27,552 nucleotides of DNA from a virus. Position numbers and translations under genes: made by a program. Positions 3,247-26,128 of the stretch are shown in pieces; position 1 is the stretch's first letter; every line of letters starts with the position of its first letter. The DNA lies in IMG/VR virus record IMGVR_UViG_3300036944_000289, positions 1 through 27,552 of that record. One strand, 5' to 3'. A model generated the notes under the pieces. It worked only from the letters and a program-made list of their open reading frames with translations. It ran no database searches and was not told the DNA's origin.

Positions 3247-3648
3247 TTACTCAGGTTTTACAGGCCAGATAATATCATTTGGGAACCCTAATTGATCTGT
3301 AATATCAAGAAGTTCACGGCGATAATTTGACCACGCCTGTTGTTGTTCTGGTGTAAGGTCTGCCCAACGAAGCGGATTGCTAACAATAGGATCAACTACT
3401 CTTGTAAGAAGATTGTTTCTTTCATAGCGAACTAGTTCTGCCGCTTTTTGATCAAGTTCGGCTTGTGTTGGAGGAATATATACAATTGTGAGTGGATCAG
3501 TATCCATTCTAATATAAAGTTCTGCCACATCAAAGTTTGCGCCAGTGTCATTCGGATCACATGTGAATGGGATCCATCCATATGTGGGATGATTGATTTC
3601 ACAGTCAATCATTGTATTATTAATATGTTTTGCGTTACGATATTCCAT
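3247..3648 (-). CDS. Tail fibre assembly chaperone-like protein, 133 residues
   Basis: The C-terminal part matches the phage tail assembly chaperone pattern (Phage_tail_APC, PF16778, by recognition): a helical YERNNLLTRV stretch, WADLTPEQQQAWSNYRREL (residues 95-113) and a terminal WPVKPE. The N-terminal half (ID-EINHP-YGWIPFTC) is a domain often joined to it. Such proteins help fold or trimerise the fibre encoded just before them; here that is the 1594-residue fibre, whose stop overlaps this ATG as TAATG. Function on that fibre is inferred from neighbourhood, and the 847-residue fibre may also use it. Confidence 0.75.
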   Translation of the reverse strand: MEYRNAKHINNTMIDCEINHPTYGWIPFTCDPNDTGANFDVAELYIRMDTDPLTIVYIPPTQAELDQKAAELVRYERNNLLTRVVDPIVSNPLRWADLTPEQQQAWSNYRRELLDITDQLGFPNDIIWPVKPE

Positions 3649-6600
3649 TATGATACCCTTAAAAATAATGCGCCATTTGTGTTTCGGTCTCCGCCGTTAG
3701 TCGATCCCGCCAATGCTTTCCATGTGCCACTCGGTACAGTGAGTCTGTACCCTCTTAGAGCAGGACCACCATCTAGCATATTAAAGTGCATATATGAAAA
3801 ATTTGAACCTGCATAGTTAGTATTGCGGTTAAATTCAAAACTATCCGAATTAGCTAAAAGTATTGCGTATGTACCAACAGCACCAGATGTCAAATCAGCA
3901 GTAGCGGCACCAACTTGCGCTGCTGTTGGTGCAGGAACTTGAGCATCGATAGCTTGCGCTACACTCAAAGGTGTCATAAGTACAGTGTTAACCGTTCCAG
4001 CTTGGGCTTGTGCTTGTGTTGCGATTGCGGTCACTGCTGTACCACCAAGAGTTAATGATGGTGTAGTTACAGTTCCAGTGAATGTTGGACTTGCAAGAGG
4101 CGCTTTTGCGTCAAGTGCAGTTTGCAGTCCGTCCACATTTGCGATGATATGATTATGGCTGTCATCGTCAACTGCAACCGTCATCGACACGTTAGCTGAT
4201 CCGTCAAATGATACGCTACCTGAAACGTCTCCCGCAAGAGTGATTGTTCTAGCTGTAGCTAAAGATGTTGCGGTTGAGGCGTTGCCCGACAAAGTACCTG
4301 TAATTGTACTCGTAAAAGTCTTCGCTCCAGAAATCTCTTGTGAGTTCGCTGTTATGAGTCCCGCAACAGTAGTGTTAGCTGCTGGAATAGTTGCGCTTGT
4401 TCCAGTTGAAGATGTGATTGTGCCGCCGTTTGAACCTGTTGTATATCCAAGATTAGTATTCGCAGCCGCAATCGATATCGAACCTGTTCCGTTTGTGATA
4501 GTCACATTCTGACCAGCAGTCAAGGTAGCTTTCGTTAATGTGTTGCCTGTTGTGTTGCCGATTAGCAGTTGTCCGTTTGTGTACGTAGTCTGACCAGTAC
4601 CTCCATTATCTACACCGAGTGTACCAGATACGTGTGTAGCCAAGCCGATCTTACCATAAGAAGGTGCTATACCTACGCCACCAGAGATCAGCGCGTTGCC
4701 TGTAGCAACGTCAGCGAGTTTGCTGAGTGTTGCGGAGCCAGATGCGAATAGGATGTCACCGACAGCATAGGAAGAGATGCCAGTGCCACCATCAGCAACA
4801 GCAAGGTCGGTAATGCCAGTGATACTGCCTCCAGTAATGCTCACCGAAGATGCAGCCTGCGTAGACATTGTGCCAAGACCGGTAATGTCTGTATTAGGAA
4901 TGGTAGCAGATGCGGTCAAAGCAGTTGTTCCTGCACCTTTCACATATCCAGTTAAAGTGGTAGCTCCAGTGCCTCCTCTGTTGACTGCAATCGTTGTTGC
5001 GTTCCAAGTACCGGATGTAAGTGTTCCAACAGAAGTCAGACTTGATCCAGTTACGCCACTTCCCAATGTTGTAGAACTAAGAACTGTTGTGCCGTTAATC
5101 TCATAAACTTTACCAGTCAGCAGATTGAAGTCTTCTGATGATGTCCAAGCACCTGTAGCATTTACCCAGTTGAAAGTTTTATCGACATCAGCACCAGCTT
5201 TCAGAGTGATACCGCCGCCATCTGCGGTAGTGTTGTTTGCCACCGCTACAGAACCCAGTTCAATATTCTTATCATCAACTGCCAAAGTAGTTGAATTGAG
5301 TGTTGTCGTAGTGCCATTTACGATCAGGTCGCCAGCAATTGTCACATCATCTGAGAAGGTTGTATTGCCCGTTACTGTCATCAATCCAGAAATAGTAGTA
5401 TTGCCCGTTACCGACATTATTCCAGAGATAGCAGCGTTGCCAGTTACGGACATCGCTCCAGAAATAGTAGTATTTCCACCGACTCTTAACTGTTTCGCAA
5501 GACCTAGTCCGCCCGAGACGATCAAAGCGCCTGTGGTCGTTGTTGTCGAATCTGTAGCGTTGCTTATAGTGATTGCGCTTGCAGTAGTTGCGCCACGACT
5601 GGTAACACTTGAAAGTGTACCATTGCTTGATATGAGAATCGCGTCACTTGCAGCATCAACATCGATATTGATATCTGTACCGCTTACTAAAGTTAGTGTG
5701 TCGTTATATGCTTCCGCGGCAGCACTACCAGTTGCAGCCCAAGTGTATTCTGTGTCGGTATCATCAACTGTGAATGTTCTGAATGCTAGATATCTGTTGT
5801 CAAGGTTTGTAGAAGATGCTGTTGCCGTCTGCACATGTCCGAATGTGTCAAATGTTAGCGCTAAGTCTTGAAGAACTGTACCATCTGTGGTATTGATGCT
5901 GACATCCGCAACAGAAGAAGTGTCAGTATGCGCAATTGTTGCAGAAGAACCTTCGCCAGGAGTGTGTGTTACAGTGATGCCTCCACCAGCGGTCACGCCA
6001 GACATATAGTTGCCAGTTGTATCAGTGCCTAGCGCGACTGAGTTTGGTTGAATATTCGCTGCAAACGAGATAGTTCCGCTTGTAAGATCAGTAAGAGTCA
6101 CGCTTCCTGTTCCTGTAACATCTCCTCCCACAAGTGTCACTGTCACAACTGGATCTGGTTTGTTTTGAACGCTTGTCCAATCGGTGTTGCCTACAAAGTT
6201 GTTTGCAGTGATGGTTCTGTATATGTTTGTCGAATTGCCAATATCAAAAGCATTGTTTGAATTTGGCAAAATTGAGTTGACAATCTTTGCATTTAGTGTT
6301 ACAATATCTGTAGTCGTATCACCAAGAACAGTATTTCCATTTACAGTTAGGATGCTAGAAACTGTTGATGTTGTTGAAATTGAGTTGTTGACTGTGAAAT
6401 CTGCATTTGTTGCTAGATTTGTTGTACCCTGGACAGTCAAATTTCCTGAAATAACAATATTTTGTCCGAAAGATGTGTTGCCTGAAAGAGTAGAAGTTCC
6501 ATTTACTATCAGCGCGTTTGTGATAGTTGCTGATTCGAGTGTAGCCAGTCCAGATGTTCCGAATGTTCCAGTGACATTCGCGCCAACAAGAGTTGTTTCA

Positions 6601-8432
6601 ATTCTCGCAACATTGTTTGAATAAAGAATTACTCCAGCATCTTCGGTCGCAACAATCATGTTTTCTGTATTTGCAGCATTCATAACTCTGAAAGTGCTTG
6701 CATCTACAATAAGTTCGCCAGTTCCAGCGTCTTTGATATAGCTGTTTAATCCGTCATGGAAAATCTGAAGGTCATCTCCAGTACCAATCAATAGATAATC
6801 GCTATCTTGTAAATCAACATTTGCGTTAAACGTTGCAGTGGTTACGACATTCATGGAATTGATTGTCGCAAGTCCACTTGTGCTTAGAGTAGCAGTGCCG
6901 ACATGAGTAGCGGCGACATTCGCAGCCGATACGACATTCGTTACCGATAGATTCGCGCTTACCGTGGTGTTGCCCGTGACAGAAAGAGTGTTATTGGCTG
7001 ATGTGAATACGAAGTTTGCGCTATCAACAATCTCACCAGCAGTGCCCACAAACGGCACCCGAGTTGCAGTCAAGTCGCGAACCATAAGCGATGCTGTGTT
7101 TGCTTGTGAGTTGATAGTCAGAACATTCGAAACAACCGCGCTATTCGCAACGGCTGCATCTTTCACATAAAGATTTAACCAGTTCGCTGCAACAGAACCA
7201 AGATCGTATGTCGTATTAGCTCCAGGGTGAATACCAGTGGTGTTAGCTGACATGACCATTGTATTCGCGTCTGCGCTTGTGCTAAGAAGAACATTCAAGG
7301 TTGGATAAGAAGTATTGGCGCTCAAAACTCTAAATGTTCTTGCGCCAAGACCTTTTAGAACCATTTGACCTTCAGCTTCAATATCAGTATCAGCCCAAAC
7401 ATAAGTCGTGTGAACATTGCCCCAAGGCTTTGCATTAGACCCCAAGTCAACTGTGGTCGCAGACGGCAAAATATCTTCGTCAACATAACCAAGAATAGAT
7501 ACGGTATCATCAATTGTCGCACCGAGTGTGACATTATTGTTGAAAAATGTTTCTGCTCCTGTGAATGTCGCATTCGCAGTTACTGTGAATACTCCATCGA
7601 TGTTTACGTTTGCATTGAAATCAGAAACGGCATTCACATTAAGAATGTCTGTGCCAGCGTCACCGATCGTGGTATTGACGCTAGTGATATTTACAAGTGC
7701 GCCAGAAAAGACAGCATTCGCGGTCTGCGTTAGAATGCCGTCAATATTGACATTCGCGTTAAAGTCTGAGATAGAATTTACGTTTAGAGCATCCGCAGCA
7801 CTAAAGCCGATCGTCATTACATCAACATTTGCATTCAAAGAAGCGGCTGTGAATATGGTATTGGAAGTCACATCGAAGGTCGTACCGTCAAAATCAATTC
7901 TTGAGCCAGTGATGATTGTGTTCGAAGTCGATTTTAGTTCTGTGCTTGTGATGTATGTGTTAACACCAGAAAGATATGTGTTCGATTTAGCAAAGAACGA
8001 GCCAGTATTTACAGTGGTGTTTGCAGCATCGATCAAGAAAATCTTTGTCGCACCACCATCAAATACCACATTGCTTGAAACGACCACGTTATTCGCGTCC
8101 ACTGTAAACATGTTGATGCTTGATGTGATATCAATTGTGCCGTTTACGGATGTGAAGACAGCGTTTGAAGTGACATTCAGAGTCGCTGGTACGCTAACAG
8201 AACCACCTCGAAGTGCGTTGGACACGCTCATAGTGTTTGCTGAAAAGATGCCTTCAATATGCGCGTTACCCGTAGTCTGCGCACCGTTTGTGGTGTTAGG
8301 CTGCGCAACGCCCGCGACTGTGACAACAACAGTCGCCATGTCCGCGATAACTAAGTTCGTTTTGCCGATCCAACCGCCAAAGCTGTCAGTCGTTACTTCC
8401 ACGTTAGCGCCTAAATATGATGATTTTGACAT
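3648..8432 (-). CDS. Long tail fibre protein, 1594 residues
   Basis: Very long Asn/Thr/Ser/Ala/Val-rich fibre with no cysteine visible. The N-terminal third holds beta repeats, including two copies of a unit of about 48 residues with SDFNANVNIDG. The middle has a module with LLIGTGDDLQIFHDG and SYIKDAGTGEL (about 547-575), and one with VNGTTTTLNSTTLAVDDKN (about 1038-1060), both common in marine T4-type fibres. Between them and the end are 12-residue SVTGNTTISG repeats, three GGTG modules (NRGGTGATT, DGGTGISSY, NGGTGQTTY) and the stretch APLASPTFTGTV-TPSL. The last 80 or so residues differ in style (FEFNRNTNYAGSNFSYMHF, ending LFLRVS) and are the best candidate for the receptor-binding tip. 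No S74 autoprotease is seen; a separate chaperone gene follows. The ATG is preceded by AGGT about 10 bases upstream. Confidence 0.85.
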   Translation of the reverse strand: MSKSSYLGANVEVTTDSFGGWIGKTNLVIADMATVVVTVAGVAQPNTTNGAQTTGNAHIEGIFSANTMSVSNALRGGSVSVPATLNVTSNAVFTSVNGTIDITSSINMFTVDANNVVVSSNVVFDGGATKIFLIDAANTTVNTGSFFAKSNTYLSGVNTYITSTELKSTSNTIITGSRIDFDGTTFDVTSNTIFTAASLNANVDVMTIGFSAADALNVNSISDFNANVNIDGILTQTANAVFSGALVNITSVNTTIGDAGTDILNVNAVSDFNANVNIDGVFTVTANATFTGAETFFNNNVTLGATIDDTVSILGYVDEDILPSATTVDLGSNAKPWGNVHTTYVWADTDIEAEGQMVLKGLGARTFRVLSANTSYPTLNVLLSTSADANTMVMSANTTGIHPGANTTYDLGSVAANWLNLYVKDAAVANSAVVSNVLTINSQANTASLMVRDLTATRVPFVGTAGEIVDSANFVFTSANNTLSVTGNTTVSANLSVTNVVSAANVAATHVGTATLSTSGLATINSMNVVTTATFNANVDLQDSDYLLIGTGDDLQIFHDGLNSYIKDAGTGELIVDASTFRVMNAANTENMIVATEDAGVILYSNNVARIETTLVGANVTGTFGTSGLATLESATITNALIVNGTSTLSGNTSFGQNIVISGNLTVQGTTNLATNADFTVNNSISTTSTVSSILTVNGNTVLGDTTTDIVTLNAKIVNSILPNSNNAFDIGNSTNIYRTITANNFVGNTDWTSVQNKPDPVVTVTLVGGDVTGTGSVTLTDLTSGTISFAANIQPNSVALGTDTTGNYMSGVTAGGGITVTHTPGEGSSATIAHTDTSSVADVSINTTDGTVLQDLALTFDTFGHVQTATASSTNLDNRYLAFRTFTVDDTDTEYTWAATGSAAAEAYNDTLTLVSGTDINIDVDAASDAILISSNGTLSSVTSRGATTASAITISNATDSTTTTTGALIVSGGLGLAKQLRVGGNTTISGAMSVTGNAAISGIMSVTGNTTISGLMTVTGNTTFSDDVTIAGDLIVNGTTTTLNSTTLAVDDKNIELGSVAVANNTTADGGGITLKAGADVDKTFNWVNATGAWTSSEDFNLLTGKVYEINGTTVLSSTTLGSGVTGSSLTSVGTLTSGTWNATTIAVNRGGTGATTLTGYVKGAGTTALTASATIPNTDITGLGTMSTQAASSVSITGGSITGITDLAVADGGTGISSYAVGDILFASGSATLSKLADVATGNALISGGVGIAPSYGKIGLATHVSGTLGVDNGGTGQTTYTNGQLLIGNTTGNTLTKATLTAGQNVTITNGTGSISIAAANTNLGYTTGSNGGTITSSTGTSATIPAANTTVAGLITANSQEISGAKTFTSTITGTLSGNASTATSLATARTITLAGDVSGSVSFDGSANVSMTVAVDDDSHNHIIANVDGLQTALDAKAPLASPTFTGTVTTPSLTLGGTAVTAIATQAQAQAGTVNTVLMTPLSVAQAIDAQVPAPTAAQVGAATADLTSGAVGTYAILLANSDSFEFNRNTNYAGSNFSYMHFNMLDGGPALRGYRLTVPSGTWKALAGSTNGGDRNTNGALFLRVS
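4190..4257 (-). repeat. Fibre module copy 3, in the 1594-residue fibre
   Basis: Encodes ITLAGDVSGSVSFDGSANV near the end of the larger fibre. It is recognisably the same DNA as 332-399 with more substitutions. It is preceded in both proteins by a GNASTAT segment, so the shared block is longer than the 68 bases listed. Confidence 0.7.
5362..5469 (-). repeat. 36-nt tandem repeat, three units
   Basis: Three adjacent 36-base units (5362-5397, 5398-5433, 5434-5469) encode 12-residue repeats of the form SVTGN-TISG-M, with degenerate partial units on both sides. Third-position differences between units show that the repeat is not brand new. It keeps frame and would lengthen the shaft one turn or strand at a time. 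Confidence 0.8.
7610..7775 (-). repeat. About 48-residue duplicated beta unit in the fibre N-terminal part
   Basis: Two copies of a segment encoding SDFNANVNIDG lie about 144 bases apart, each followed by a T-TANA-F-GA stretch. They are part of a wider run of similar beta repeats in the first 300 residues of the 1594-residue fibre. The exact edges were judged by eye. Confidence 0.6.
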
Positions 8433-21493: not shown

Positions 21494-21898
21494 TTATCTG
21501 ACTCTCTCTAGAACAACTTCTAAAACAACTGGCTCTTGTCTATTTATAACGTTAAACACAATCGATACGAAGACGCCGTTTTGATCTTCTGCGGATGAAC
21601 ACACAACATCAATCAGATTGCATCTAGGTTCATTCGTTCGAATTGTAGTTGATATTTGCTGCTTCATTGCAACAAGAAGTTGTGGTGTAATATTTTCAAA
21701 TAACATGGCACGAAGATGTCCGCCCAATAACGGCTGAAACAATCTCTCGCCTCTGTCTGTAAACAGTATGTTTTTGATCGATTGCTTGATGGAGTTTTCG
21801 TTCAACTTGACAGCAATGTCCTCACTGATCGGATTGAAGTCCAGATCATTTGTGAAGTCGCTGTAGATGACCCTTGACTGTATTGGAGAAGTTGCCAT
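21494..21898 (-). CDS. gp25: Baseplate wedge/sheath initiator gp25
   Basis: Small wedge subunit of the GPW/gp25 lysozyme-like fold, conserved in all contractile tails, where it joins the wedge core to the first sheath ring. Length is 134 residues against 132 in T4. Signature parts are LFTDRGERLFQPLLGGHLRA (45-64) and the EPR motif (90-92, TNEPRCNL). The fold is not enzymatic. The ATG is preceded by GAGGA 5 bases upstream and by a late promoter core in the 32-base gap before the gene. Confidence 0.95.
   Translation of the reverse strand: MATSPIQSRVIYSDFTNDLDFNPISEDIAVKLNENSIKQSIKNILFTDRGERLFQPLLGGHLRAMLFENITPQLLVAMKQQISTTIRTNEPRCNLIDVVCSSAEDQNGVFVSIVFNVINRQEPVVLEVVLERVR
21541..21548 (-). promoter_or_regulatory. 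TATAAATA late promoter core upstream of gp6
   Basis: Exact minus-strand core in the 3' part of gp25, 49 bases before the gp6 ATG. It would give a leader of about 42 bases. It is embedded in coding sequence (VINRQ region of gp25), so it is less certain than the cores at 21917, 19734 and 3226. Confidence 0.55.
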
Positions 21899-21930: not shown

Positions 21931-23583
21931 TTAGCCGTTCCATTCTCTTGCAGAAGCAACATCGCAATGAGTGAACCCGTTGTATGATCCAAACCCCACA
22001 AAACCTACCTGTTTACATAGTCTAATGAACTCAGGTTTTCTAGGTTCATTTCTGGGCATGTTATCTATATCCATAGCTTTGCCTGACCTGTGTTGAGAAT
22101 TTTTTGCAACACCAGAGTCGAATCCATTCTTGACATGCCTCAAATATGTGTTATAATAAGGATGTCTGAATCCGCTAGAGCAAATTATTCTTATTCCCAT
22201 TATTCTACCAACCTCATTCATCATTTCAAGAACATGTATATCAATGCCGTAATAACCAATCGCAGGATTGATGCCTTCTGATTTAACATTTACGATACCA
22301 CCACCATCATCCACCATTCTCAAGTTTCCGTATGTTGTCCAAAAAGGCTGACCATCTGCTGTCACAGCATTTAAAACTTGACCCGAAAATGCCAAATTCG
22401 ACCAACCGTCTGGAGGAGGGTGATTCGAAAAGTTACTTGGCACATGGATACGAGTAATAGGACCCTGTGGATCAGAAGTCACACTTGAAGCATTTGACGC
22501 ATTGACATATGCTTGACATTGTGCAGCAAGTGTTCCTGGATCTGGAACAGGTCTGCCGCCTTCTACTGCTGATCTGAGTGCATCAGCACTTCCAAGTGAC
22601 AAAGATGAGTTTACGCCTGTGATTTTAGACGCAGCACCAACAACAACATCCAAAACGGACATTAGACTATTTTCAACAGCAGTTGCCATTTTGCAGAACA
22701 AGAAAAGTAAAAATTGAATCGCTTCAATTGTCAATGTCGCAAATCCTAAAACAGCCTCTGCGATTTTAGTTGAAATGTCTGTTACCAAGTTTGCGATATT
22801 GCCATCAGATAAAGCATTTTGGACATTAACAAATTGCTTTGAGAACCAACGATTCAAACTTAATTTATTATTACCTTGTAAACCTACCATTTTTGCTATT
22901 TCTTTGCTTACTTTATCGGCAACATTTGAAACTTTGTCTTTAATACTATTGACAATATCTTTAACTGAGTTAATAAGCGAATTTGCGAATGCTTTAAGAG
23001 ATGCCGCTAATCCTGAAAGAGCGTCAAGAGGATTTTCCAAACTCGCAAGCAATTCTTTCAATGATTTAAAGCCACCTAGGAAGTCAGAAAAAAGAGATAT
23101 CGCACTTGTGATCTTATTGAAAGGATCAGACAAGAACCTACATAAAGAACTTACAGCTACACCAGCAATTGTTACTTTTAGAAAGTTGTTAAACTGTTCC
23201 ATGTGTTTTTTAGGATTATTTTGAATAGTCTCTGTCGCTGTTCCAGTTGTTGTCGCAGTGTCAACAGTATAGTTGTACTCGTTAAGAAACTCTCCATATT
23301 CTATTTGTGTGATAGCGCCTTCCGCAAGTCTATCAGTAACAAAAGTATATTCTGTTTTATCAAAAGCAGCGTTATTTAAAACGTTTGTGTTGAATAGTGT
23401 AAGAGTAGCGGCAACATCCAAGACAACATTTTGAGTTGCGAGTAATTCGTCATTCGATAATCCCGAAACGGAATTATCGTTAAAGTAAGCTGGTGTTAAC
23501 AGTGTCGTGGTTTCTGTCTGGATCGTTGTTGGTTTATTTACGCAACAATCGCATGTAGACGAATTGCAATTACAATCATCCAT
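21931..23583 (-). CDS. Hub-region protein with C-terminal M15-type Zn peptidase domain, 550 residues
   Basis: Probable virion-associated peptidoglycan-cleaving enzyme. Residues about 445-545 carry the M15 (Peptidase_M15_3-like) pattern: SSGFRHPYYN (469-478), SQHRSGKAMDID (496-507) and FTHCDV (537-542). Expected zinc ligands are H498, D505 and H539; D541 completes the usual H-x-D end. This family cuts peptide bonds in peptidoglycan stems (D-Ala-D-Ala or L-Ala-D-Glu type); the exact bond is not predictable here. The N-terminus is cysteine-rich, with five Cys in the first 14 residues. Residues about 140-235 are amphipathic helices, and about 274-297 form a hydrophobic membrane-like stretch (AVLGFATLTIEAIQFLLFLF). 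The gene lies between the lysozyme-free gp5-like spike and gp25, so it probably replaces the T4 tail lysozyme. A good AGAAGGA site precedes the ATG. Confidence 0.8.
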   Translation of the reverse strand: MDDCNCNSSTCDCCVNKPTTIQTETTTLLTPAYFNDNSVSGLSNDELLATQNVVLDVAATLTLFNTNVLNNAAFDKTEYTFVTDRLAEGAITQIEYGEFLNEYNYTVDTATTTGTATETIQNNPKKHMEQFNNFLKVTIAGVAVSSLCRFLSDPFNKITSAISLFSDFLGGFKSLKELLASLENPLDALSGLAASLKAFANSLINSVKDIVNSIKDKVSNVADKVSKEIAKMVGLQGNNKLSLNRWFSKQFVNVQNALSDGNIANLVTDISTKIAEAVLGFATLTIEAIQFLLFLFCKMATAVENSLMSVLDVVVGAASKITGVNSSLSLGSADALRSAVEGGRPVPDPGTLAAQCQAYVNASNASSVTSDPQGPITRIHVPSNFSNHPPPDGWSNLAFSGQVLNAVTADGQPFWTTYGNLRMVDDGGGIVNVKSEGINPAIGYYGIDIHVLEMMNEVGRIMGIRIICSSGFRHPYYNTYLRHVKNGFDSGVAKNSQHRSGKAMDIDNMPRNEPRKPEFIRLCKQVGFVGFGSYNGFTHCDVASAREWNG

Positions 23584-23597
23584 TGTTTTTATCCTTC

Positions 23598-24887
23598 TTA
23601 TGCATATTCAGCTTGGTCATCAACAGCATCAAGTCCCGGAGACGCTGTAGGTAGTGTTGGTTTTTTGACAGGAGATTCTTTAGCGGGAATATCGCTTGAC
23701 GGCAATTCAGTTCTATTCACATTCAATCCAGAAGCAGCTAACGCGGCTGTGTCTGCTTGTCCATTCGCCATGTTCACGAGATTGTCGATATTGACATTTG
23801 TACCTTTGATATTAATTTCACCACTTTGTATGTTAGCTTTAGTTGCTGATTTCAAATTCACATTACCTGCGCCATAGATATTCGTATCTACCGCCGCTTT
23901 GATTTCAACATTACCGTCCGCTGAGTTTAAGAAAAGAGCGCCAGAACTTTTTGCACTGATGATCTGTCCGCCGAGATGCATTTCTACTCCAGAGAAAATG
24001 TCAAAATTGTTTTGTGATTCGAGTGCCATTGAAATACCTCTTGTTCGAATTGCTTCTCCCACATTCGTATTCATGTAACCCGCAACATTCAATTCATAGT
24101 TACCAGCGACTGTAGTTTTGAGATTGCCGCCGACTTTAATAGTCATATCATTTTGCGCGTGAAGTTTTATGGAACCACCAGCAGTAATATCGTAATCACC
24201 GTAGATTGCAATTTTACCATCTGCTTCAATAAGCATATACATGGTACCACCGCTCTTAATTACAGTAGTTCCGTTTGAATCCATTTCTATATGTGATCCA
24301 GAAGTATGATACAAGTTAATTCGTTCATTACCTGGCGTGTCATCTAACTCAAATACATGTCCAGATTTTGTTTCGTGAACAAAGTTGTGTGGGTAAGAAG
24401 CATTGTATGGTGAATTTGGCTGCGACCAAGATGACCCATCAGCGCTCGTGACATTCGAAGTCGCAGTGACATTCTTTACAGCCACACTCGTTTGTTCTAC
24501 TTGTTCGGCACGTGCCAGTCTTGACATATCTGGTTGATATGAGTCACATACGTTTATAACGCCTGTTGCAGATGAAAAACCATCTGCGGGTAAAGATGGC
24601 ATCGTCGGCATACCCATCATCATGCCTATCAGCATAGGTTGTTGCGCGAATTTGCCATCAAGAAAGAAACCCCATACCCAAGAATTGAGTTGTGGTACTG
24701 TGATAGCAGAACTGTAGTTTCCAGAAATTGCGTAAGCCCATGGCAAATCCTCTGTCGGCAAAATTGCTTTGTCTTCTGTGTGAAAGCCGAAGCATCTTAC
24801 GCGGGATCTTCCTAACTTCTGGGGGTCGTTATTATCTTCAACAACGCCCATAAACCAAAGTAAATCTTTAAATCCTTTATCACTCAT
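23598..24887 (-). CDS. gp5: Baseplate spike gp5-like, without lysozyme domain
   Basis: Cell-puncturing spike related to T4 gp5 and VgrG tips. Residues about 1-100 form the OB-fold (DLLWFMGVVEDNNDPQKLGR then SRVRCFGFH, LPWAYAI, WVWGFFLDG, QQPMLIGMM). A linker runs to about 160. Then YPHNFVHETKSGHVFELDD and the following NLYHTSGSHIEMD lead into a triple beta-helix to about residue 370. T4 gp5 (575 residues) has a lysozyme domain between OB-fold and helix; the linker here is too short for one and has no lysozyme motif. The tail after the helix (KKPTLPTASPGLD) is Pro-rich and flexible. The start overlaps the gp27-like stop as ATGA, consistent with making the gp27-gp5 hub complex together. Confidence 0.88.
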   Translation of the reverse strand: MSDKGFKDLLWFMGVVEDNNDPQKLGRSRVRCFGFHTEDKAILPTEDLPWAYAISGNYSSAITVPQLNSWVWGFFLDGKFAQQPMLIGMMMGMPTMPSLPADGFSSATGVINVCDSYQPDMSRLARAEQVEQTSVAVKNVTATSNVTSADGSSWSQPNSPYNASYPHNFVHETKSGHVFELDDTPGNERINLYHTSGSHIEMDSNGTTVIKSGGTMYMLIEADGKIAIYGDYDITAGGSIKLHAQNDMTIKVGGNLKTTVAGNYELNVAGYMNTNVGEAIRTRGISMALESQNNFDIFSGVEMHLGGQIISAKSSGALFLNSADGNVEIKAAVDTNIYGAGNVNLKSATKANIQSGEINIKGTNVNIDNLVNMANGQADTAALAASGLNVNRTELPSSDIPAKESPVKKPTLPTASPGLDAVDDQAEYA

Positions 24888-26128
24888 AATGCGCCCTCAC
24901 CCTTCAATGCGTCTTTTAGAAGACCAGCTGTCATTTTCCATTTGCTTCCGTCATATACAGATTTTAAGTTGGCAACCATATAGAGTCCGGAAAGCGTTTT
25001 GTGTAGTTTCACATAATCATTCGCGCTTGACAAATCTTGTAATTCAAGTCGAATTAGATCACCTATATTCATGTTATTTGCACCATAAAAATCCACATAC
25101 ATTAAAATGCTGTTTAGATAATACGAAGTCGAGAGTCTTTGTGAAACCATATCTTGATATGTCTGATCAGTTCTTGTTGAATCTTGAAACACCAAATAGT
25201 CATTTGTGATATTATCATCACCAAAAAATTCTTCGTTAAATTTAGGCGTGTGGTAATCTTGTTGGACGCTATCCGTATGTTTATATTCTTTGACTTTTTC
25301 GTAGTGCTTGTAGTCGATATTTTCATAAGTTCTGGTTGCCAAATCTAGTTTGATCACGCGACTAATAGGTGCGCCTCTTCTCATCTCTTCAATAAGATTG
25401 AACCTCTTATTCAAACTGAAAGCCTGAATTTTATTCATTTGCGCAACTCTATCTTCAATGTCAGCATTTACCGAAGAGTAGTAATATTTCTTTTCTGTTG
25501 ATTGACCATCTTCAAATAACTTCTCGTGTGTGCCAAAGAAATACTTGTCTTTTCTTTCGAAGAACAGAAAGTTGCTGGACTTATAAACATCGCTAAACGA
25601 TTTTGTAGCCATCATCATCATAGTTTCAATTGGCGTCAAGTTCGGAACAACAATAACATTCTCACCAACAGTGTCTTCTATTTCTATTGCCTTTTTAGAA
25701 ATAAAGTATTCGTTGTAAATACTCTTGACAATTTCGCTTATTCTGCCTTTATACGAAAAACTAATTTCAACAGATTCCGATTTGATGTAGTCTTTTGAAA
25801 ACATCCTCATGACATAAAACTGGGATGTTCCAAGATCATTTGTCACAAGCGTATCGACTGCATAAATGTGAAAATTATAGGTAGTCGTTTGCTTAAAGAA
25901 GTCTTCAATCTCTAATACCAATTGCTCTTCGCCGAGAAGAGGAAACGAATCGATTATGTTTGTTGCGTCTGCGATTGTCAATAGTCCATGAATAGACACC
26001 TTTGAAATGTCTTCTTGTATTTCCATATTAGTGATCATGTCACCAATGGAAATCTTTTTGGTACCATCGTAATTTGACAGTTCACACTTCTTTACGATGT
26101 AACCACCCGGCTCAATGTTATCACTCAT
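24884..26128 (-). CDS. gp27: Baseplate hub protein gp27-like
   Basis: Probable hub subunit whose trimer holds the spike and continues the tail tube. Length is 414 residues against 391 in T4. The N-terminal GGYIVKKCELSNYDG, DMITNMEIQEDISKVSI and LLGEEQLVLEIEDFF, then VIVVPNLTPIETMMMMA and SNFLFFERKDKYFFGTHEKL (185-204), follow the gp27/VgrG-head pattern seen in marine T4-type phages. Proteins of this kind are sometimes labelled VrlC-like. The gene overlaps gp53 by 8 bases and the gp5-like gene by 4, fitting a hub-spike operon. Identity rests on pattern and position rather than close sequence match. Confidence 0.75.
   Translation of the reverse strand: MSDNIEPGGYIVKKCELSNYDGTKKISIGDMITNMEIQEDISKVSIHGLLTIADATNIIDSFPLLGEEQLVLEIEDFFKQTTTYNFHIYAVDTLVTNDLGTSQFYVMRMFSKDYIKSESVEISFSYKGRISEIVKSIYNEYFISKKAIEIEDTVGENVIVVPNLTPIETMMMMATKSFSDVYKSSNFLFFERKDKYFFGTHEKLFEDGQSTEKKYYYSSVNADIEDRVAQMNKIQAFSLNKRFNLIEEMRRGAPISRVIKLDLATRTYENIDYKHYEKVKEYKHTDSVQQDYHTPKFNEEFFGDDNITNDYLVFQDSTRTDQTYQDMVSQRLSTSYYLNSILMYVDFYGANNMNIGDLIRLELQDLSSANDYVKLHKTLSGLYMVANLKSVYDGSKWKMTAGLLKDALKGEGAL

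Follow-up and report, generated by a model that had tools for sequence, protein, structure and literature searches.

In phage T4, cutting of the host cell wall is tied to the spike through the tail lysozyme gp5. The closest described relatives of the protein considered here are the phrog_25247 peptidases of the Sinorhizobium phages phiM12, phiN3, phiM7 and phiM19. In this study, we have analysed the IMG/VR virus record IMGVR_UViG_3300036944_000289 (27,552 bases, possibly a fragment; the whole of it is called the window below), where a minus-strand reading frame encodes a 550-residue protein, hereafter the target, that is like these peptidases in domain layout and, in the case of phiN3, also in gene slot. 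Identity to the Sinorhizobium proteins is 29.5-29.7% over 86% of the query. A likeness to T4 gp5 may lie in spike-tied wall cutting; unlike gp5, the target is a separate protein, a predicted peptidase and not a lysozyme, and has a helical N-terminal part. A sequence-only reading of residues 1-311 had drawn attention to five cysteines close to the N-terminus. Our main finding is broader than that observation: a three-cysteine signature, made of one N-terminal cysteine, C148 and C297, is conserved across peptidases that form one family and are probably associated with the hub. The phiN3 peptidase has equivalents of all three, with a single N-terminal cysteine where the target has five. These cysteines are conserved like the active site and are kept where the active site has decayed, which points to structural or triggering chemistry in the hub.

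A conserved cysteine signature

Relatives were drawn from 180 open reading frame (ORF) matches obtained after two further scans. Removing 24 that were incomplete or shorter than 401 residues left 156 full-length proteins, removing near-copies by shared 5-mers left 66, and dropping one weak match (L214, 60 bits) gave the 65 members counted here. An N-terminal cysteine aligns in all 65; in 64 of them it is among the first 20 residues, and in L049 it is residue 33. C148 occupies its exact column in 62 members, every member has exactly one cysteine within 9 residues of it, and for the three that miss the column (L038, L040 and L050) alignment A4 places the cysteine in it. C297, part of an RFC motif in many relatives, is found in 62 members, and G343, directly after the last long helix, is invariant (65/65). 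Over positions 1-345, only M1, the N-terminal cysteine, R85, E95, C148, C297 and G343 reach 60 of the 65. Cysteine density is 8.2% over residues 1-20, 5.3% around C148 and 5.0% around C297; elsewhere it is 0.07% from residue 20 to C148, 0.30% between C148 and C297, zero between C297 and G343, and 0.42% beyond. In the peptidase domain, H498, D505 and H539, which we take to be the M15 zinc-ligand set (H..D..H), are all kept in 63 of the 65, and in these alignments the three cysteines are about as conserved as the predicted catalytic residues.

In the members L151 and L152, H498 is replaced by Y and D505 by S or L, and both retain a four-cysteine N-terminus, C148 and C297. In one lineage at least, the cysteines appear to have outlived the peptidase ligand set, which suggests a structural role. 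Two further proteins (L217 and L218) resemble this pair by eye, with M15 ligands lost and cysteines kept; they add no independent evidence, because they are 91% and 97% identical to L151/L152 and belong to one lineage. They come from different phage contigs (FZLS01000013.1 and FZLS01000012.1, respectively) that were binned with a single Rhodobacteraceae genome, which hints weakly at a host among the alphaproteobacteria.

The same gene slot was also approached through gp25, with a search pattern unrelated to cysteines. The best 80 of 264 loci were taken, and in 76 of these the ORF before gp25 was readable. An M15-type motif occurs in 59 of the 76, the family profile is matched by 24 of the 28 non-redundant full-length slot ORFs, and 23 of these 24 have a cysteine within the first 20 residues. 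In alignments of the neighbouring baseplate proteins, cysteine did not reach 30% of rows in any column of gp25 (65 rows), gp5 (57), the gp27-like protein (27) or gp53 (20); gp6 has one such column (22/67 rows) and the tube cap one (3/5, in an alignment of 5 rows only). As aligned here, gp25, gp5, the gp27-like protein, gp53 and gp6 are without a cysteine comparable to those of the target. Among the matches listed in a search of open-licence papers, we found nothing on the cysteines of this family.

The target itself (21931-23583, minus strand) begins MDDCNCNSSTCDCC, with cysteines at residues 4, 6, 11, 13 and 14. Five cysteines fell within some 11-residue stretch in 3 of 20,000 shuffles of the protein, and within the first 15 residues in none of 20,000. 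The target holds 11 cysteines (2.0%); the remaining 15 proteins of the window share 17, and eight of them have none. Reading frame, shuffles and counts thus confirm what had been read from the sequence, five cysteines at residues 4-14 in cysteine-poor surroundings. As for their conservation, the cluster is present in three of four close relatives (L002, L003 and L005) and reduced to a single N-terminal cysteine in the fourth (L004), and it is the single cysteine that characterizes the wider family. Over codons 3-20, the window differs from L005 by 8 synonymous and 1 non-synonymous changes, and from L003 by 2 and 0. Judged from these comparisons, the N-terminal cysteine feature is real and appears selected.

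In 13 of the 65 members, the first 20 residues include four or five cysteines, in three styles: that of the window (DCNCNSSTCDCC), MTCKCCG..QC, and C.C.PGK..C..CL, the last in 9 members. A tree of the sequences from residue 41 on requires no fewer than 4 changes of the multi-cysteine label, and this minimum holds when the count is restricted to well-supported branches; on this tree, such N-termini recur in separate branches. C-x-C and C-x2-C spacings are common in metal-binding knuckles, and disulfide knots also use them; a metal site at the N-terminal cysteines is possible. The proposal that these cysteines form a tip is unlikely because the N-terminus is modelled as a low-confidence arm preceding the helices, with the peptidase at the C-terminus.

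Peptidase domain, helical region and baseplate locus

The C-terminal domain is matched by Pfam Peptidase_M15_2 (PF05951, residues 455-548, 35.6 bits against a curated gathering score of 27) and Peptidase_M15_3 (PF08291, residues 448-541, 30.8 against 23.2). The cut-off of the MepK equivalog NF053624 is not reached (32 bits against 185); the phiM12 protein has a BFVD entry (S5M6U0) named "Murein endopeptidase K". The phrog_25247 match spans residues 76-549 (E 5.9e-52) and led to 7 phage records, from the four Sinorhizobium phages; phiM12 and phiN3 have Sinorhizobium meliloti as their recorded host. In the search of named phage records, matches covering most of the length came from Sinorhizobium phages only, mostly under the annotation "peptidase", and many uncultivated T4-type phage contigs carry the family. 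A helical-region profile searched against six virus records matched in five, with a single match in four of these; the two matches in G001 are fragments of one 714-residue frame, and the record of L214 gave none.

Neither the OB nor the lysozyme domain of a T4-type gp5 was found in the target, and its PHROG matches to hub and lysozyme families were weak and not used. Sequence searches of solved structures returned nothing at E up to 1, and Foldseek against the PDB nothing at E up to 0.001 for either of two AlphaFold2 models. The PDB rows overall are weak M15-like and unspecific helical ones, those at the top for the first model including Hedgehog and a VanY-like chain. A viral-library fold search returned S5M6U0 of phiM12 and M15-type proteins. 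The VIA-align rows for the helical part resemble ordinary helical bundles (best Z 10.0) and were not used, and PADLOC gave no match.

The first AlphaFold2 model covers the full length (24 rows, mean pLDDT 66, pTM 0.39) and the second residues 1-352 (61 rows, mean pLDDT 70, pTM 0.51); L063, L071, L073 and L082, which have large insertions, were excluded from both folding alignments and are included in the 65. The run of amphipathic helices described earlier at about 140-235 is borne out by hydrophobic moments of up to 0.57 at about 143-220 and by predicted helices at 143-152, 154-169, 175-181 and 185-231 in the second model, with low confidence over 150-179. The hydrophobic stretch reported at about 274-297 fares differently. 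It is present in the window protein, with a best 19-residue Kyte-Doolittle mean of 2.01 at 278-296, and contains E287 and Q290. When the best 19-residue window of this stretch is taken in each of the 65 members, the median hydropathy is 0.96; a value of 1.6 is attained by only 3 members, which all belong to the clade of the window, and at least three charges are present in 49. Both models break the stretch with a loop (280-285) that follows helix 260-279 and precedes helix 286-341, so that it is not predicted as one helix. On these grounds we rejected a transmembrane helix at 274-297, and a search for an uninterrupted, family-conserved hydrophobic helix there, as expected of a single-pass membrane protein, found none. 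The segment around C148 has a median hydropathy of 1.53, reaches 1.6 in 26 of the 65 and carries at most one charge in 44; in the window protein it is moderate, with two charges and a best value of 1.49. The C148 segment would be the better candidate for any membrane insertion by the target, and a buried core would explain its hydrophobicity equally well.

The target lies in a T4-type baseplate operon of nine minus-strand genes, namely tube cap, gp53, phrog_350, gp5, target, gp25, gp6, a 1025-residue wedge subunit and gp8. The gene order of phiN3 is identical, with a "peptidase" in the target slot, and one small opposite-strand gene separates this peptidase from gp25. Pfam and PHROG scans gave OB and beta-helix matches for the window gp5 and found no lysozyme domain; it is therefore a reasonable inference that a separate peptidase has taken over wall cutting. 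At two other loci, the gp5 neighbour has a transglycosylase SLT match, above the gathering score in one (L075:2089-4152, residues ~556-619) and below it in the other (L063, 1416-3710, residues ~218-269). A different protein of 567-622 residues occupies the gp5-gp25 slot in L017, L022, L024, L025 and L029, and in L019, L026 and L031 the slot is split between two ORFs, of which the second has the M15 motif. In the cyanophages S-WAM2 and P-RSM4, no gene annotated "peptidase" lies beside gp25 (unannotated neighbours there were not examined). Elsewhere in the window, two minus-strand genes (78-2621 and 3648-8432) encode proteins of 847 and 1594 residues; both are free of cysteine, neither has a Pfam match at E 0.01, and the gene of a tail assembly chaperone (3247-3648) lies nearby.

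Table 1. Positions in the window of the target, its features and neighbouring genes
Feature	Position	Strand	Basis
Target, 550-residue M15 peptidase of the phrog_25247 family, probably hub-associated	21931..23583	-	Pfam M15, phrog_25247, phiN3 synteny; hub association suggested by gene order
N-terminal cysteine cluster, residues 4-14 (C4, C6, C11, C13, C14), in a low-confidence, probably flexible arm (~1-43)	23542..23574	-	Sequence, AlphaFold2 models
Segment 134-152 around C148, hydrophobic in the family, moderate in the window	23128..23184	-	Hydropathy in 65 members
Conserved C148	23140..23142	-	Alignment of 65 members
Long amphipathic helix 185-231	22891..23031	-	Hydrophobic moment, both models
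Hydrophobic stretch 274-297, predicted helix-loop-helix, ending at C297	22693..22764	-	Hydropathy, both models
Conserved C297	22693..22695	-	Alignment of 65 members
Invariant G343	22555..22557	-	Alignment of 65 members
Predicted M15 peptidase domain, residues 447-548, with H498, D505, H539	21940..22245	-	Pfam, residue comparison
gp5-like spike protein	23598..24887	-	OB domain and beta-helix matches; lysozyme domain not found
phrog_350 "tail protein", probable gp27 equivalent	24884..26128	-	PHROG match; gp27 position suggested by gene order
gp25 baseplate wedge	21494..21898	-	Profile matches

Possible roles of the cysteines

The explanation that we prefer, and that we place a little above even, is that the target is a tail peptidase associated with the hub, and that a thiol site, either a metal or a disulfide, holds its flexible N-terminal arm. 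It would be the tail-borne peptidoglycan peptidase of the baseplate hub, taking the wall-cutting role of the lysozyme domain of T4 gp5. The helical region (~44-341) probably binds the target to the hub, or inside it, and the predicted C-terminal peptidase would be released upon tail contraction and cut peptide bridges. The ~40 N-terminal residues would form the flexible arm. Its cysteine, C148 and C297 are most likely parts of one putative thiol site, by which the arm is attached to the helical region or subunits are linked. In lineages with three or four extra arm cysteines, including that of the window, these may form a metal cluster of their own or additional cross-links. For the site itself, we lean slightly towards a bound metal (zinc or iron-sulfur) rather than a disulfide because of the odd cysteine count and the lack of conserved partner cysteines in neighbouring baseplate proteins. 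If the site is metal- or disulfide-bound, it would represent an added way for contractile tails to hold and release a wall-cutting enzyme.

Several observations weigh against this explanation. The confidence of AlphaFold2 is modest in both models and low for the N-terminal arm. Since the counting profile derives from members with cysteines, the conservation percentages may be inflated. Four of the 28 slot proteins (L017, L024, L025 and L029), all outside the 65-member set, lack both a match to the family profile and a cysteine in the first 20 residues, so that remote kin without the cysteine signature may exist; in alignment A3, L022 (of the L017 type), L024, L025 and L029 all align a cysteine in the 148 column, and the N-terminal cysteine and C297 are absent from them. 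Finally, three members (L063, L071 and L082) are without C297 and keep the N-terminal cysteine and C148, and because of them a two-cysteine disulfide from the N-terminus to C148 fits equally well.

This last point leads to the rival that we consider possible, at clearly less than even chances: a disulfide latch, in which the N-terminal cysteine pairs with C148 (or with C297, or with a neighbouring subunit) in the oxidising environment after release and holds the peptidase until a reducing or mechanical trigger. The survival of the N-terminal cysteine and C148 after loss of C297 is what one would expect of such a pair. Tail assembly, however, occurs in the reducing cytoplasm, and in 17 of the 65 members the cysteines of the entire chain number exactly three, so that complete pairing is impossible there: the number per chain is odd and there is no conserved partner. 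Furthermore, the structural proteins of phage Milano, whose tail is held by disulfides, average 2.1% cysteine according to its description (PMC10811340), whereas here a single protein concentrates 11 cysteines and the other 15 have 17 between them. A more specific form of the metal reading, which we hold to be doubtful, is that zinc or an iron-sulfur cluster is bound at the three thiols, perhaps where the three-fold axis of the hub runs, and that this site is a latch, sensitive to redox state or metal, which keeps the enzyme and the hydrophobic segment in place until contraction, the four- and five-cysteine clusters being repeated elaborations of it. If true, such a three-thiol metal site would be of a kind for which we found no description in T4-type hubs.

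The sequence-only reading, in which the spike would deliver a metal-binding tip and a helix at 274-297 that inserts into the membrane, draws on the five-cysteine cluster and the hydropathy of the window protein, and it is quite improbable given the few relatives that reach 1.6, the usual charges, the loop in both models and the single N-terminal cysteine of the close relative L004. What is left of that reading is its N-terminal cysteine feature, now a family-wide signature, and not its membrane helix. Insertion of the C148 segment, an uncharged, glycine- and phenylalanine-rich stretch that would enter the inner membrane during delivery and be kept folded beforehand by the cysteines, agrees better with the hydropathy of the family; we nevertheless regard it as unlikely, since the window protein is less hydrophobic there and the segment could equally be a buried core or an oligomer interface. 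We give hardly any credence to the target being the tape measure protein of the phage. Weak PHROG matches of the window protein (E 4.2e-05 to 0.0056) hint at this, the most widely matched such family being found in 12 of 32 relatives, but like PHROGs match phiN3 gp120 at similar strength, so that the matches look like shared helical make-up, and the helical region would be short for a tape measure. It was rejected as the principal explanation, the matches being weak only and phiN3 gp120 better placed. The latter (L216:1636-3339), a 568-residue hypothetical protein beside the hub genes, is a candidate tape measure protein of phiN3.

Comparison with cysteine-bearing tails

Cysteines with a role in tail structures have been described in two settings that bear on the target. 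PMC10721106 describes lambda gpL and RcGTA gp13 as tail-tip proteins with an iron-sulfur cluster, and these resemble the target in having conserved cysteines in a tail-tip component. The arrangement differs, as gpL has four cysteines within 40 residues, whereas the target has three that are ~130-150 residues apart. The gpL-type family was absent among the Pfam matches of the target up to E 0.1, although the presence of such a model in the library was unchecked. For phage Milano, PMC10811340 reports disulfides throughout the tail, with cysteines near the N-termini of tail proteins making covalent links. On that description, the cysteines of Milano are spread over the tail, whereas those of the target phage are concentrated in one protein.
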